Origin: Cyanobacteria bacterium FACHB-DQ100 | Lineage (GTDB): Bacteria; Cyanobacteriota; Cyanobacteriia; Leptolyngbyales; Leptolyngbyaceae | Direction: 5' to 3' | Length of the DNA: 64,000 nucleotides | Assembly: GCA_014695195.1 (NCBI GenBank) | Contig: JACJNW010000039.1 | Coordinates: forward strand, 124,001-188,000 | Shown here: in pieces, positions 1 through 62,749 of the stretch | Layout of the letters: each line of letters starts with the position of its first letter | How positions within the stretch are numbered: position 1 is the first letter of the stretch | Position numbers and translations under genes: made by a program | The notes under the pieces: generated by a model | What the model was told of the DNA's origin: nothing | What the model saw: the letters and a program-made list of their open reading frames with translations, nothing else | Database searches by the model: none

Positions 1-415
1 TCGGATCAAAGGCTTCGTCACCACGGGTGAGCGCCGCCTGCGGATCGCACAAACCTTGACCGATTCGCGTGAGCGCATCGTTAAGCAAGCAGGTGATCAA
101 CTGTTCCAAAAGCGTCCTGATGTTGTTTCTCCTGGTGGAAACGCATACGGCGAAGAAATGACCGCTACCTGTCTGCGTGACTTGGACTACTACCTGCGTC
201 TCGTAACCTACGGAATCGTTGCAGGTGATGTAACCCCGATCGAAGAAATCGGTATCGTCGGCGTGAGAGAAATGTACAACTCCTTGGGAACTCCGATTCC
301 TGCGGTTGCAGAAGGCATTCGCGCTATGAAGAACGTGGCTGCTTCGTTGCTCTCCTCGGATGATGCTTCCGAAGCTGGCGCTTACTTCGACTATGTAATC
401 GGTGCAATGCAGTAA
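1..415 (+). CDS. apcA: Allophycocyanin alpha subunit, 5'-truncated by window edge
   Basis: Alpha subunit of allophycocyanin, the core phycobiliprotein of the phycobilisome, carrying one phycocyanobilin and passing light energy to the photosystems. The reading frame is open from base 2 and ends at a TAA at 413-415, giving 137 visible residues. The family is about 161 residues, so roughly 24 N-terminal residues lie outside the window. The bilin-binding cysteine is in the segment [11 protein letters not shown], which also has the usual aspartates of the chromophore pocket. Internal TTG codons are not the real start because the conserved GERRLRIAQ stretch lies upstream of them. apcB follows after 62 bases, the standard apcAB order. 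Confidence 0.97.
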
Positions 416-6272: not shown

Positions 6273-7373
6273 ATGACTAAAAATCTACAACTCATTGATT
6301 TGAGAAAGGCTTACACTCCCAAGGTTGTTCCGGTCAAAAACATCAGTTTAGAAGTGAATCAAGGTGAATTTCTCACGCTGTTAGGCCCATCAGGCTGCGG
6401 GAAATCTACAATTTTGCGGCTGATTGCAGGACTCGAACAGCCCACCAGCGGACGAGTGATGATCAATGGTCACGATGTCAGCCGCTTGAGTCCGGGCGAT
6501 CGCAACATTGCAATGGTGTTTCAAAGCTATGCGCTGTATCCCCATATGTCGGTTTACGAGAACATTGCATCTGGGCTAAAACTGCGAAAAACGCCCCACG
6601 CTGAAGTCAAAGAGCGCATTCGGGAAGTTGCAGATTTTCTAGGCTTGCATGAATTAATGGATCGTAAACCCGGACAGTTATCTGGAGGTCAACGGCAACG
6701 GGTAGCAGTGGCGCGAACCTTAGTTCGTCGTCCTGATTTGTTCTTGCTGGATGAACCCCTCAGTAACTTAGATGCACTGTTGCGGGAACATGTCCGGGCA
6801 GAACTGAAACAACTCTTCGGATCGCAAAATGCGCCGATCGTTTATGTGACGCACGACCAAACCGAAGCGATGACGCTTTCGACTAAAGTTGCCGTGCTGA
6901 ACAATGGCTATCTGCAACAGTTCGATCGACCCGATGTAATTTACAGTCATCCTGCCAACGAATTTGTGGCAGGCTTTATTGGTAGTCCGCAAATGAACTT
7001 CTTGCGAGTTCCTTGCGACAATGGCAGCGCACTCGTTGGCAATACTCGGATTCCTACACCCCGTGGATATGCAGCGCGAGAAGTGGTGCTGGGCATTCGT
7101 CCGGAGCATGTACACCTGGCTCAAGGTCAAAATGAACCCGTTCTTAACGGCGAAGTCTTTCTGACTGAGAACCTAGGAATGCACGACTTAGTGAGTTGCC
7201 ACCTTCAGAGTGCGTCTGGTGAACCAATGAAGGTTCGGGCAATTCTGCCGGTGCATTCTGGGTTCAGCAATGGTAGCACTGTGCGATTGGCGTTCCCAGT
7301 TGAGCATATTCACTGGTTTGATGCCACCACAGGCGATCGTGTTTCTAGTAGCGAATCACGAGTCGCGGCATAG
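6273..7373 (+). CDS. Sugar ABC transporter ATP-binding protein (UgpC/MalK family)
   Basis: ATPase that powers the importer. In 366 residues it shows the Walker A motif GPSGCGKST (38-46), the ABC signature LSGGQ (136-140), Walker B LFLLDEP (156-162) and a switch histidine in VTHDQTEAM. Beyond residue 240 lies an MalK-type TOBE/OB regulatory domain containing GIRPEHVHL. It is the last gene of the four-gene operon; in some cyanobacteria the corresponding ATPase is encoded elsewhere and shared, so its presence here suggests a self-contained transporter. The next gene is convergent. Confidence 0.94.
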   Translation: MTKNLQLIDLRKAYTPKVVPVKNISLEVNQGEFLTLLGPSGCGKSTILRLIAGLEQPTSGRVMINGHDVSRLSPGDRNIAMVFQSYALYPHMSVYENIASGLKLRKTPHAEVKERIREVADFLGLHELMDRKPGQLSGGQRQRVAVARTLVRRPDLFLLDEPLSNLDALLREHVRAELKQLFGSQNAPIVYVTHDQTEAMTLSTKVAVLNNGYLQQFDRPDVIYSHPANEFVAGFIGSPQMNFLRVPCDNGSALVGNTRIPTPRGYAAREVVLGIRPEHVHLAQGQNEPVLNGEVFLTENLGMHDLVSCHLQSASGEPMKVRAILPVHSGFSNGSTVRLAFPVEHIHWFDATTGDRVSSSESRVAA

Positions 7374-59619: not shown

Positions 59620-59696
59620 GTCCCACAAAATCAAATTCGCTTACTCAGTCTACCGACAAAGTTAAGCATTATGGTTACGACCCCTGACAAATTCCG

Positions 59697-59807
59697 CTAA
59701 TAAGGGCTAGGTTCTCGATCGTGCATTACTTGCAAGATGAAAACGTCATTGTCACGAACAACATCGTAAAGACGATCGCCATATTGCCAAATCACGAGAT
59801 TGAACGT
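59697..59807 (-). pseudogene. C-terminal remnant of a RelE/ParE-like toxin
   Basis: A 36-codon open stretch on the minus strand reading NLVIWQYGDRLYDVVRDNDV then FILQVMHDREPSPY before a TAG. It looks like the C-terminal third of a RelE-type toxin. There is no start codon and the preceding codon is TAA. It is directly downstream of the attC-like element, which fits a partial second cassette. Assignment is by pattern only. Confidence 0.4.
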
Positions 59808-59828
59808 TTATCCCAATTCAATCTCAGG

Positions 59829-59928
59829 CTAAGCCAGCTAACGGTGAAGTTGTGCGGCGGCAGATAATCTCGGACTCCCACCACCAACCTCTGTTCCGCC
59901 CCCACCAACGCATTGTTGGGCTGCGCTG
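59829..59928 (-). repeat. attC-like imperfect inverted repeat 3' of the VapC gene
   Basis: Read on the minus strand, GCAGCCCAACAATGCGTTGG lies immediately after the vapC stop and its imperfect inverse, CCGCACAACTTCACCGTTAGC, lies about 70 bases on. The core has the RYYYAAC-like end (GCCCAAC) and a GTT-type end (GTTAGCT) of integron cassette attC sites, and the site sits at the 3' end of the gene, as in gene cassettes. It is not a perfect match to GTTRRRY. A dispersed cyanobacterial repeat is the alternative. Confidence 0.4.
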
Positions 59929-60312
59929 CTACATGACGTTGACTGAGTAGGCACAGATTGCTGTATCCACTGTCGCAATTGTTAAACCATTTTGTAAAGC
60001 TTGACAGATAAGCATTCTGTCAAATGGATCACGATGTAATAGTGGCAGTTTAGCCAGTTGAACCACACTAATTTCATCAAGGGCAAGACTGGCAATTTGA
60101 TGTAGATCGCGCTGTTTGGGTAAATACGTTTCGGGATGCTCCGGCAGAGGCAGCTTGCCCAACTGGTACTTGACAATTGCTTCCCAGACTGAGATTGCAC
60201 TCAGATAAACCTCATTGTCTGGATCACGAATTGCATCCCGAACATCTGTTAACAACTGGGTATCGCCACTAATGAACCATAGAAAGATGTGAGTATCTAG
60301 CAGAATCTTCAT
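59929..60312 (-). CDS. VapC-family PIN-domain toxin
   Basis: A 127-residue PIN-domain ribonuclease of the type II toxin-antitoxin kind. It begins MKILLDTHIFLWFISGD with the metal-binding Asp6 and contains WEAIVKYQLGKL and the later FDRMLICQALQNGLTIATVD segment (two conserved Asp). The enzyme cleaves RNA; the exact target is not predictable. Its start overlaps the stop of the Phd-like antitoxin by four bases (ATGA), and the attC-like repeat follows it. Confidence 0.9.
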   Translation of the reverse strand: MKILLDTHIFLWFISGDTQLLTDVRDAIRDPDNEVYLSAISVWEAIVKYQLGKLPLPEHPETYLPKQRDLHQIASLALDEISVVQLAKLPLLHRDPFDRMLICQALQNGLTIATVDTAICAYSVNVM

Positions 60313-60545
60313 TTGCCCTCGAATGCGCTGAGAAGATCTTCCGGCAAAGGAGCATCGAAATCATCTGGAACGATAAACTCACCTGCACATAAACCAAATG
60401 GTCTCAATTGTTTGCTACTGGTAATCGGTCTAAGTTCGGCAATAGGCTTGTCAGATCTAACAATGACAAGAGTTTCGCCTGCCTCTACCTGGTGAAGGTA
60501 CTTCAAGGGATCACGTTGAATTTCATCAATAGTTACATTCAGCAT
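60309..60545 (-). CDS. Phd/YefM-type antitoxin partner of VapC
   Basis: A 78-residue antitoxin from ATG 60545. The N-terminus MLNVTIDEIQRDPLKYLHQV and GETLVIVRSDKPIAELRPI are typical of Phd/YefM DNA-binding antitoxins; the C-terminal acidic part (PEDLLSAFEGK) should bind the PIN toxin. The start is supported by AGGTAGG a few bases upstream. A longer frame runs to 60605 but is not conserved. It is coupled to vapC. Confidence 0.88.
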   Translation of the reverse strand: MLNVTIDEIQRDPLKYLHQVEAGETLVIVRSDKPIAELRPITSSKQLRPFGLCAGEFIVPDDFDAPLPEDLLSAFEGK

Positions 60546-60601
60546 CAGCCTACCTCGGTGTAAATTTGATGGACAAACAAATCTCCAAAACATCAAAGAG
60601 T

Positions 60602-61123
60602 TCAAAGGCTCTCTAGGTAAAGAGTTTTGATCTGAAAGGCAACTTTTCTAGCTTGGGTTAGTGGAATGGGATAGCCAACTGTGTTGTACCCTCTATTGGG
60701 AACACTTCTCTTTTGAAGAGTTTTCTGTAATTCCCAAACTAGCACTCTCAGTTTTCCTGGCTTAAAGACAAGAATTTCTTGCTCTGGTATCAGGACGATC
60801 CAGTAATCCGCCTGAGAACTCCACCCCCATCCTGGAATCATCTCTTTGTCGTTCGAGATAGTTTCAAAAAAGAGATTGCCTGTCCGTTTAGCCACAAGGT
60901 CAAACTTATACTCGATCGTGATAACTGATCCATCTGACCGAGTGATAATTCTGTCTATCCCTGCTTGCTGGTACTTCATCTCGTTAGAGACATCAAGCAC
61001 TTTGTAGATAGGATATAACCACTGGTCTAAGAAGGTTTCTCCCTCTTGTCCAACTTTGCACTGAGTTTCAAAATCGTATGGTTTAGTTTGCATCGATTTG
61101 AGGGATGTAGAGTTGGATACCAT
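60602..61123 (-). CDS. PD-(D/E)xK nuclease-like protein (gene 3 of unknown operon)
   Basis: A 173-residue protein. A nuclease-type pattern is visible: GIDRIIT (Asp57), then ITIEYKF (Glu71, Lys73), then RTGNLFFE. This order, D ... ExK, is that of PD-(D/E)xK nucleases. The middle part GWSSQADYWIVLIPEQEILV looks like the core's last strand. ATG 61123 is chosen over 61093 because GAAGG lies just upstream. It overlaps the upstream gene by 41 bases, which indicates translation coupling. It resembles small phage-type nucleases by pattern, not by name. Confidence 0.7.
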   Translation of the reverse strand: MVSNSTSLKSMQTKPYDFETQCKVGQEGETFLDQWLYPIYKVLDVSNEMKYQQAGIDRIITRSDGSVITIEYKFDLVAKRTGNLFFETISNDKEMIPGWGWSSQADYWIVLIPEQEILVFKPGKLRVLVWELQKTLQKRSVPNRGYNTVGYPIPLTQARKVAFQIKTLYLESL

Positions 61124-61952
61124 CGCTACCTTCTCGTCGAATTGGAATGCCAGCCCACCGTGACACCCAATTCACCAATGCCCGCAAGGAACTGGCTCTG
61201 CGAGGATTGGTGGTTCCTCCACAATCACCGAAACTTACCAGAGAAATCACCTCTTGAATTAGTTCTTTAGTGAGTTCTTGATCGTCACGAGTTGTTTTCT
61301 CAATAATCATTTGAATTGGGTAGAACCCTAGCAATGCTTCTGCAAGAAGGCGTTCACGAGTTTCCTGATCATCGCTCTGGGCAATCCTTTTCCCTCGATC
61401 TGTTAAGACGTAAATGCTTGAAGACTTATTCTCGGTCGAACCTCGACTGGCAAGACCAATCTCCATCACGGGTCGTCCAAGGTAATCTCCTCTCCTAGCC
61501 AAATCTTTTTCTTTTTTGGCACCACTACCAAAAGCAACACCTAAAGATTTAGATGTGTTGGTTCCAGAATGAATTAGCGCAACAGTCTTAATGTACTTCT
61601 GTGGATCACCGATTTGAGGGATGTAAATGGGCTGTTGCTCGCCTCCACGCAGATCCTGATCTAGAGCAGTTTTCCAATCAATTAAGTGAGAAATCTGCTG
61701 GAACTCATAAAACCTGATTTCTTTTCTCGGAACATCAACAGCATAGGTAAGCTGGAAAGTTCTTCCCTTGAGTTCATAAACTAATCCCGAAACACCAGGC
61801 TTGATACCACAACAAGCCCCTTCAACTTCACCAGTCTGCTTGAGAATTTCTAGGACAGGCGCAAGTTCCTGCTCTACTGCCAGATCACAGAATGTACTTC
61901 TGTCAGAAAGTATCGTCTTAGTTTGAGAATCAAAATACGTAAACTTGAACAC
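61083..61952 (-). CDS. Unknown protein with RelE/HigB-like N-terminus and winged-helix C-terminus (gene 2 of unknown operon)
   Basis: About 289 residues from a GTG at 61952, chosen because GAGGAG lies nine bases upstream; a TTG at 61976 is the alternative (297 residues). Residues about 40-95 (VSGLVYELKGRTFQLTYAVD then RKEIRFYEF) resemble the beta-sheet of RelE/HigB toxins, an inference. Residues about 160-200 contain SSIYVLTDRGKRIAQSDD, a winged-helix-like wing. The C-terminal part (GGTTNPRRASSLRALVNWVS) could be another DNA-binding or restriction-associated domain. No catalytic residue is certain. It sits between a Phd-like gene and a nuclease-like gene. Confidence 0.6.
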   Translation of the reverse strand: MFKFTYFDSQTKTILSDRSTFCDLAVEQELAPVLEILKQTGEVEGACCGIKPGVSGLVYELKGRTFQLTYAVDVPRKEIRFYEFQQISHLIDWKTALDQDLRGGEQQPIYIPQIGDPQKYIKTVALIHSGTNTSKSLGVAFGSGAKKEKDLARRGDYLGRPVMEIGLASRGSTENKSSSIYVLTDRGKRIAQSDDQETRERLLAEALLGFYPIQMIIEKTTRDDQELTKELIQEVISLVSFGDCGGTTNPRRASSLRALVNWVSRWAGIPIRREGSDGIQLYIPQIDAN

Positions 61953-61979
61953 TTCAATTAACTCCTCATGCTGCAATAA

Positions 61980-62375
61980 CTAGACCTGAATCTCAGAAGG
62001 AACAAACAAAACTTTATCTGCGTCACCAATCAGTGGTAATGAAAGGTAATGCGTGAAGCGAGGCGATACAAATGCCACAACCCGCCTTTTATGAAACGTC
62101 AGATAGATACAATCTATTCCACCCAAAAGCCTCTCCCAGGATTCGGTTAGCTGATCACGAAACTCAGTGAGAGGAATCTCTTCACTGTTCTGAATACTAG
62201 GTTCTCCCTCTTCTGAATTGAGAGCATCAATATCTTGAAGTGGAAGCAAAAAGGCTGCAACTTCACCATAGTGAGTACATACAATCCGTAAGTTACCCGA
62301 CTGAACTTGCCGCCTAAGTTTTGGCAGCTTGACTCTTAATTCGGACATCGGGATTTGCTTAAAACTTTTGTTCAT
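61980..62375 (-). CDS. Double Phd-like antitoxin-type protein (gene 1 of unknown operon)
   Basis: About 131 residues from ATG 62375. Two halves align with each other: IPMSELRVKL...GNLRIVCT...VAAFLLPL and IPLTEFRDQL...GIDCIYLT...VVAFVSPR. Each half looks like a Phd/YefM domain, so the protein is an internally duplicated antitoxin-like protein. A frame to 62402 exists, but the predicted promoter ends downstream of that start, so ATG 62375 is used. Its stop is 3 bases from the TTG candidate start and 27 bases from the GTG candidate start of the next gene. Confidence 0.65.
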   Translation of the reverse strand: MNKSFKQIPMSELRVKLPKLRRQVQSGNLRIVCTHYGEVAAFLLPLQDIDALNSEEGEPSIQNSEEIPLTEFRDQLTESWERLLGGIDCIYLTFHKRRVVAFVSPRFTHYLSLPLIGDADKVLFVPSEIQV

Positions 62376-62400
62376 GTTTACTTGCCCTTCCCTACACCTC

Positions 62401-62429
62401 ATAATGGCAAATCATTTTGAAACTGTCAA
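62401..62429 (-). promoter_or_regulatory. Promoter of the three-gene operon
   Basis: On the minus strand TTGACA (62429-62424) is separated by 17 bases from CATTAT (62406-62401), a strong sigma-70-type pair. It lies directly upstream of ATG 62375, which carries GGGAAGGG upstream. Confidence 0.7.
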
Positions 62430-62731
62430 TAGTGTCTTACGTTTTTTACATTTTAAGTCTAAACCAGAGAATCAGCAAGGATTGTAGGGTATCTTGCTTT
62501 GCGTAGAATAGATGGTTTGCGCTAGATGGGTACTGCGTGCCAACCGAGAACACTCAGGTTGCTGCCCTCACCGATAACCTAAGCAGCTCAACTCTTTTTT
62601 AGACAGATTTGATCCGCCTTATTCTGTCTAACTCCTCTAATTCAGGGTTTCATACGGCTTTTCGTCTGGATAAAACTCTGAATCGGGATGATATGTAGAA
62701 TTTTGTCTGTATATCACTCCGAAATGGGCAG
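62430..62731. other. Intergenic region with inverted repeats
   Basis: About 300 bases without a gene. Three successive imperfect inverted repeats are listed separately. On the minus strand the amidohydrolase gene ends at 62732, so this region also contains its transcript end; no T-rich terminator was seen. Confidence 0.4.
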
Positions 62732-62749
62732 CTATGTAGACGAAATTCT
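62600..62749. repeat. Cluster of three imperfect inverted repeats
   Basis: TAGACAGA (62600-62607)/TCTGTCTA (62623-62630); TTCAGGGTTT (62641-62650)/AAACTCTGAA (62673-62682) with one mismatch; and AGAATTTTGTCT (62697-62708)/AGACGAAATTCT (62738-62749) with one mismatch. The last spans the end of the amidohydrolase gene. Confidence 0.6.

Follow-up and report, generated by a model that had tools for sequence, protein, structure and literature searches.

Three adjacent genes of the cyanobacterium FACHB-DQ100, here termed A, B, and C, constitute a conserved and horizontally scattered operon in which a duplicated Phd/YefM-like protein, a RelE-fold protein with a large DNA-recognition-like extension, and a PD-(D/E)xK nuclease are encoded together. 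Tentatively, the operon may specify a restriction-like DNA nuclease that is held in check by a regulator of the toxin-antitoxin type, a proposal whose mechanism is inferred but which builds on protein folds, domain sharing, catalytic residues, synteny, co-divergence, and purifying selection, all established by computation. The operon was studied within a stretch of 64,000 nucleotides, referred to throughout as the window.

The original prediction placed the three genes on one strand, and all of them do lie inside positions 60602-62375, where the minus strand reads A-B-C (Table 1). The promoter that it described is likewise present, about 26 bp ahead of the ATG of gene A. Promoter-like sites as such are not enriched in the region (8 found against 6.9 expected from shuffles), yet this TTGACA-N17-CATTAT promoter is conserved across eight orthologous loci despite the unremarkable count. 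Directly upstream of its -35 box stands ATGTAAAAAACGTAA, and 14 of 21 loci have a ATGTAAAA motif in the 160 bases ahead of gene A, against a chance expectation of 0-8% per locus; among the 14 is a viral contig that encodes an A-like protein of just 43% identity. Sites of the ATGTAAAAAACGTAA/ATGTAAAA type are thus proposed, from sequence, as a candidate operator bound by A. The start of gene B that relatives conserve is the GTG at 61952 behind a GAGGAG ribosome-binding site and not the TTG upstream of it. Similarly, the 41-base overlap of B and C described earlier holds if C is read from the upstream ATG at 61123, but the start conserved in relatives, the ATG at 61093, shortens it to 11 bases. 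Overlaps of at least 4 bases between B and C are also seen in L037 and in other A-B-C loci.

Table 1. Features of the A-B-C operon and its neighbourhood, in window coordinates
Feature	Coordinates	Strand	Description
Gene A	61980..62375	-	Proposed antitoxin and repressor of 131 aa; two Phd/YefM-like domains in tandem, at residues ~4-45 and ~64-106
Gene B	61083..61952	-	Proposed DNA-recognition subunit of 289 aa, read from GTG; RelE/YoeB fold over residues 1-88
Gene B, residues ~104-286		-	Winged-helix DNA-recognition-like domain (DUF7226)
Gene C	60602..61093	-	163 aa; conserved ATG; PD-(D/E)xK nuclease, D47, E61, K63; proposed cleaving subunit
Gene C, longer reading	start 61123	-	173 aa; upstream in-frame ATG
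Operon promoter TTGACA-17-CATTAT	62401..62429	-	From sequence; kept in eight orthologous loci
Candidate operator ATGTAAAAAACGTAA	62437..62451	-	Directly upstream of the -35 box; conserved among orthologous loci
GAGGAG ribosome-binding site of gene B	61962..61967	-	Read from sequence
B-C overlap, 11 bases	61083..61093	-	End of B over conserved start of C
VapBC pair	Phd-like 60545-60309, PIN 60312-59929		

Recurrence of the gene order elsewhere had been named as a check, and A-B-C stands in 14 cyanobacterial loci: ten from the search with A, the window itself, and G306 (L003), G143 (L004), and G438 (L029). The search with A returned 17 genome loci, all of them cyanobacterial, and B, intact or broken, adjoins A in every one. 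C follows directly downstream in 10 of these 17 and is missing from that position in 7, and consequently is not essential to A-B. Loci were collected by a contig scan seeded with A, since neither B nor C, as initially aligned, offered a stretch well enough conserved for the purpose, and loci of B or C that have no recognisable A are under-sampled in these counts. When B was the query it was recovered from 6 of 386 genomes, with A adjacent in all six and C in four. The three proteins have diverged in concert, with pairwise distances that correlate at r 0.91-0.98 (0 of 2000 permutations as high), and dN/dS ratios of 0.03-0.29 for A, B, and C indicate purifying selection. Neither B nor C has relatives among the viral contigs searched, and B has no match in phage records.

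Decay and substitution within the operon take several forms. B is broken in two of the 14 A-B-C loci (L035, L029), and is damaged while A remains intact in L032, L035, L045, and L029. In Thermosynechococcaceae MS004 (L033:5423-6391, the same locus as L002), C has been lost through a deletion that also joined B, in frame, to the C-terminal end of VapB, the product of the neighbouring antitoxin gene. Three Nostoc loci (L023:5759-7093, L045:5003-6379, and L046:6475-7809) carry, after A-B and in place of C, two conserved genes of about 297 and 143 residues whose function is unknown.

The first protein had been predicted to contain a duplicated Phd-like domain, and its halves do align with each other beyond chance (z 4.9; none of 1000 shuffles as good). 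The same comparison exceeds its shuffles in four of five relatives tested (0-1 of 1000) and is weak in the fifth (27 of 1000), and profile-profile comparison of the two halves gives P 1.4e-5. Against the Pfam Phd/YefM family (PF02604) the first half scores 26.2 bits, under the 29.8 cut-off, and the profile of the A family matches the RelB1 antitoxin of M. tuberculosis (chain 9g12_C, E 0.0068). A is the best conserved of the three proteins, with a mean identity of 0.62, and B the least, with 0.43. Each of the 17 loci that the search with A retrieved pairs a Phd/YefM-type gene with a RelE-fold neighbour, as in type II toxin-antitoxin systems, and Phd-type antitoxins are among the known partners of RelE toxins (PMC2701414). 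A-like proteins are also encoded on IMG/VR viral contigs (L047:4965-5402 and L048/L049:4998-5363), where they show 54% and 43% identity in the aligned portion and are preceded by the ATGTAAAA motif, with neither B nor C detected alongside; these could be phage-borne mimics of the antitoxin.

For the second protein, an AlphaFold2 model built from 15 sequences (pLDDT 82.6) and structure comparison bear out the RelE/HigB-like N-terminus that had been suspected. Residues 1-88 adopt the RelE/YoeB fold, with a strand, helices, and four strands in the RelE order, and match structures of RelE, YoeB, HigB, and ParE, among them 1wmi (RelE) and 4fxe, with Z 10.3 and 9.9 across some 80 residues, and 9g12_B (Z 9.3). 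The last of these is the toxin of M. tuberculosis RelBE1, the very complex whose antitoxin the A profile matches, and this correspondence between A and RelB1 (9g12_C) and between the N-terminal domain of B and 9g12_B was counted in favour of an A-B pairing. The active site is another matter. At the position of the YR arginine shared by six aligned cyanobacterial RelE/ParE relatives, B carries a variable Q, K, E, N, or F, a comparison that depends on a weak sequence alignment (P 0.06) to relatives picked by their YR motif and that concerns an aligned position, not a structural superposition. Elsewhere in residues 1-92, too, no basic residue is conserved, and the only near-invariant polar or glycine positions in the domain are E29, G41, and Y70, so that by sequence the RelE-fold domain appears catalytically bare. 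Because the RelE-type arginine, which alignment can check, is not kept, a ribosome-dependent RNase toxin is doubtful, and the toxin-antitoxin module extended by a nuclease that the original prediction suggested is unsupported as it was stated. ParE-type toxins likewise do without the basic residues that RelE-type RNases conserve for catalysis (PMC11980606), and B might therefore still be toxic.

The C-terminal part of B points in a different direction. The winged-helix C-terminus that had been proposed is seen in the AlphaFold2 model, in which residues 104-286 form winged-helix-type domains. These match Nt.BspD6I (Z 7.8, 149 aligned), FokI (Z 7.3, 166 aligned), and SspB (Z 7.2, 172 aligned), all middling values in the range of 7-8 where a shared arrangement alone can explain the match. 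Sequence adds support of its own, for the same part of B belongs to Pfam DUF7226 (PF23871; 33.6 bits against a cut-off of 27), a domain that also forms the C-terminus of DUF6996-DUF6997 proteins, putative restriction enzymes of about 430 residues that carry an EID...EAK nuclease-like motif in the same chain. In several cyanobacteria (L056-L066), genes for D12 (Dam-type) methylases overlap or adjoin the genes for these DUF6996-DUF6997-DUF7226 proteins, and the pairs are putative, as yet unnamed type II restriction-modification systems. A third architecture, at L028, joins DUF7226 to DUF6575 beside a methylase-like gene; functional selection has recovered anti-phage systems whose domains include DUF6575 (PMC9519451). 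Crinalium has a B-like gene without an A, and the gene that comes after it encodes a Dam-family methylase. Sequence searches of the B and C profiles against solved structures gave no meaningful match, and no paper on DUF7226 was found in the open-access literature. From fold similarity and the shared domain, the C-terminal part of B may recognise a DNA sequence or modification state. Given that DUF7226 is shared with Dam-linked putative restriction enzymes and that the fold resembles recognition domains, the likely business end of the operon is the B-C pair and not the toxin domain of B.

The third protein had been read as a nuclease from a D...ExK pattern, and D47...E61-x-K63 is invariant in nine divergent relatives. 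Its AlphaFold2 model (pLDDT 78.1) has the expected PD-(D/E)xK fold and matches nuclease structures, best of all I-Ssp6803I (2ost, Z 9.5, 120 residues aligned), with NhoI at Z 9.0, Eco15I at Z about 9, and Hjc and RecU at Z about 8. C has no obvious recognition domain of its own and would be a cutting subunit that B recruits. C-like genes also occur in other cyanobacteria where A and B are absent, and C-like folds are common in phages, among them Phormidium phage Pf-WMP3 and Anabaena phage A-4L; tblastn with C against phage records gave only a weak match, to Thermus phage phiFa, and among PHROGs the only match was phrog_13596, a family of unknown function. In Microcoleus FACHB-1515 (L044:6313-6732), a PDDEXK_11 nuclease (111 bits) takes the place of C after A-B; as the two nucleases are unrelated, it seems to be the nuclease activity that counts there.

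How these parts might work together can be outlined. A, as a covalent pair of Phd/YefM domains, would bind the ATGTAAAA-type operator and so repress the operon, and would also dock on the RelE-fold domain of B much as YefM docks on YoeB. With its C-terminal domain, B would then read DNA sequence or modification state, and C, recruited by B, would cut the DNA. R.BspD6I offers a precedent for a recognition subunit that acts with a separate small nuclease subunit (PMC6261011). In the resident cell, A could keep the nuclease quiet, or an orphan Dam-type methylase of the host could shield host sites. It is more doubtful, though worth entertaining, that the B-C nuclease dispenses with a methylase of its own and is controlled by A together with a catalytically bare RelE-fold domain that serves as an on-off switch. 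Motif scans found no methylase gene within about 5 kb of A in 18 loci and none in the final 20 kb of the window, and self-protection is accordingly unexplained if the operon is restriction-like; A may provide it, or else the one orphan D12 methylase encoded some 90 kb distant on this contig may do so. Also counted against a restriction-like function were the middling Z of 7-8, the lack of a sequence match of B or C to any solved structure, the seven A-B loci with no C downstream, the B without A in Crinalium, and the inconsistency of defence genes in the flanks.

Other explanations account for parts of the evidence. Were the operon an ordinary type II toxin-antitoxin system, B would be the toxin by virtue of its RelE-fold domain (an RNase or a ParE-like gyrase inhibitor), A its antitoxin, and C an accessory or passenger. 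The fold itself, with Z up to 10.3, and the Phd-type antitoxin gene upstream of it fit such a system; the repeated decay of B beside an intact A in the four loci named above is what a costly toxin would leave behind, and two sister genomes hold another toxin-antitoxin-like pair at the same site. That account is nonetheless rather unlikely, as the RelE-domain consensus of B is without the YR arginine of the six aligned relatives, B carries a 180-residue DNA-recognition-like domain that single-domain toxins lack, and C is present in 14 loci with its catalytic residues invariant.

An improbable alternative is that the operon spreads for its own sake, with C a homing-type endonuclease like I-Ssp6803I and with A and B doing no more than regulating or aiming it. 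I-Ssp6803I is indeed the best structural match of C, C-like folds are frequent in phages, and the distribution is patchy (B in 6 of 386 genomes, A in one of eight of the genus), but the insertion sites are intergenic and differ between genomes, neither an intron nor an intein was found, nor any clean empty site showing target duplication, and flanking repeats are clear only in L038 (about 450 bp) and weak in L040 and L046. No easier to credit is a regulatory unit that neither cuts nor kills, in which A and B form a DNA-binding complex, the RelE fold serves as a docking surface, and C is a repair enzyme of the Hjc/RecU kind. The Z of about 8 for C against Hjc and RecU and the apparently bare RelE-like domain of B would suit that arrangement; the patchy presence of the operon, unlike that of housekeeping repair genes, the PDDEXK_11 protein that stands in for C, and the DUF7226 domain held in common with methylase-linked putative restriction enzymes would not. 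The restriction-like nuclease under toxin-antitoxin-type control, for its part, is the proposal carried forward below.

The genomic setting of the operon is probably one of turnover. The adjoining Phd/VapC pair that had been noted is real (PIN 48.8 bits), and the stretch without HIP1 sites is there as described, at 3.3 kb; it is only the fourth longest such gap in the window, however, so it is not remarkable, and HIP1 scarcity was rejected as a sign of foreign DNA. G+C is lower in the region (0.43 against 0.49), a difference that speaks weakly for DNA transfer. Within the host genus, A is found in one of eight genomes and the neighbouring cytosine deaminase gene in all eight. In two sister genomes (L101, L102), the interval between hisS and the cytosine deaminase gene is occupied by another pair, with products of about 96 and 108 residues, toxin-antitoxin-like in look, and when window positions 59634-62732 were compared with both, 59690-59792 still matched part of that pair. 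Since the sister genomes carry one pair there and the window carries VapBC and A-B-C, the interval is probably a site at which such modules turn over. Recurrence in defence islands, another of the checks that had been named, was not borne out: 70 flanking proteins from 13 loci, compared with PADLOC and Pfam, revealed no consistent defence neighbour in the listed families. The flanks of those loci consist mostly of housekeeping genes and other toxin-antitoxin genes (VapC, DUF5615/DUF433), and their matches to PADLOC and Pfam are scattered singles, several of them to housekeeping or intron genes. In Dolichospermum circinale, a direct repeat of about 450 bases flanks the operon (L038:4314-4765 and 6893-7324); it corresponds to the 5' end of a gene resembling that of isoleucyl-tRNA synthetase, its copies share 96-98% identity where they align without gaps, and it may be a trace of insertion or an assembly artefact.

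Should the proposed control of a restriction-like nuclease prove true, toxin-antitoxin and restriction systems, usually treated as separate classes, would be physically merged in one operon, and a restriction-like enzyme could draw its self-protection from an antitoxin and not from a methylase. An old toxin fold would have become a switch that turns DNA cleavage on and off. A first function would be gained for those DUF7226 proteins that include a RelE-fold domain, and cyanobacteria would offer a simple system for tests. More broadly, this would amount to a new kind of controlled DNA-cutting defence.

The combination of genes, which the original prediction called unfamiliar, appears indeed to be so: A, B, and C have no match in PADLOC-DB 2.0.0 up to an E of 10, no paper that describes the gene set was found in the open-access literature (weak evidence of absence), and a survey of RelE/ParE proteins (PMC11980606) mentions neither "winged", nor a winged-helix fusion, nor cyanobacteria. 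Several known systems are nevertheless akin to parts of it. With YefM-YoeB and RelBE it shares a Phd/YefM-type first gene, a RelE/YoeB fold in the second protein, and a short operon with its own promoter; it differs from them in the two tandem Phd-like domains of A, in the third, nuclease gene, and in a B that has a large DNA-recognition-like extra domain and lacks the conserved RelE-type arginine. The ptuXYZ operon (Gerdes 2025, PMC11980606) similarly has three genes, couples a RelE-superfamily domain with a putative nuclease, and is proposed to act in defence, but it encodes a P-loop ATPase and a DUF262 protein and has no Phd-like gene, no DUF7226, and no described PD-(D/E)xK protein (PMC11980606). 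I-Ssp6803I resembles C in structure (Z 9.5), whereas C has no detectable sequence match to it and lies in an operon, not an intron.

Among restriction enzymes, the nearest likeness is to R.BspD6I, a heterodimer of a large recognition and nicking subunit with a small nuclease subunit (PMC6261011): the C-terminal domain of B resembles, at a middling score, the recognition part of Nt.BspD6I (Z 7.8), and a separate small PD-(D/E)xK protein is encoded downstream. In B, however, a RelE-fold domain occupies the place of the nuclease domain, there is no sequence match, and A-B-C has no linked methylase and begins with a Phd-like gene. The DUF6996-DUF6997-DUF7226 proteins share with B the DUF7226 C-terminal domain and its pairing with a PD-(D/E)xK-like motif, but hold the nuclease motif and DUF7226 in one chain, beside a methylase, with no Phd-like gene and no recognised RelE fold. 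A-B-C thus possesses the RelE-class fold and gene arrangement of toxin-antitoxin systems without the catalytic residue that can be checked, and the nuclease of restriction systems without a linked methylase, and is for that reason filed under neither class. Combining the two kinds, toxin-antitoxin and restriction, it can be called an unnamed three-gene unit.
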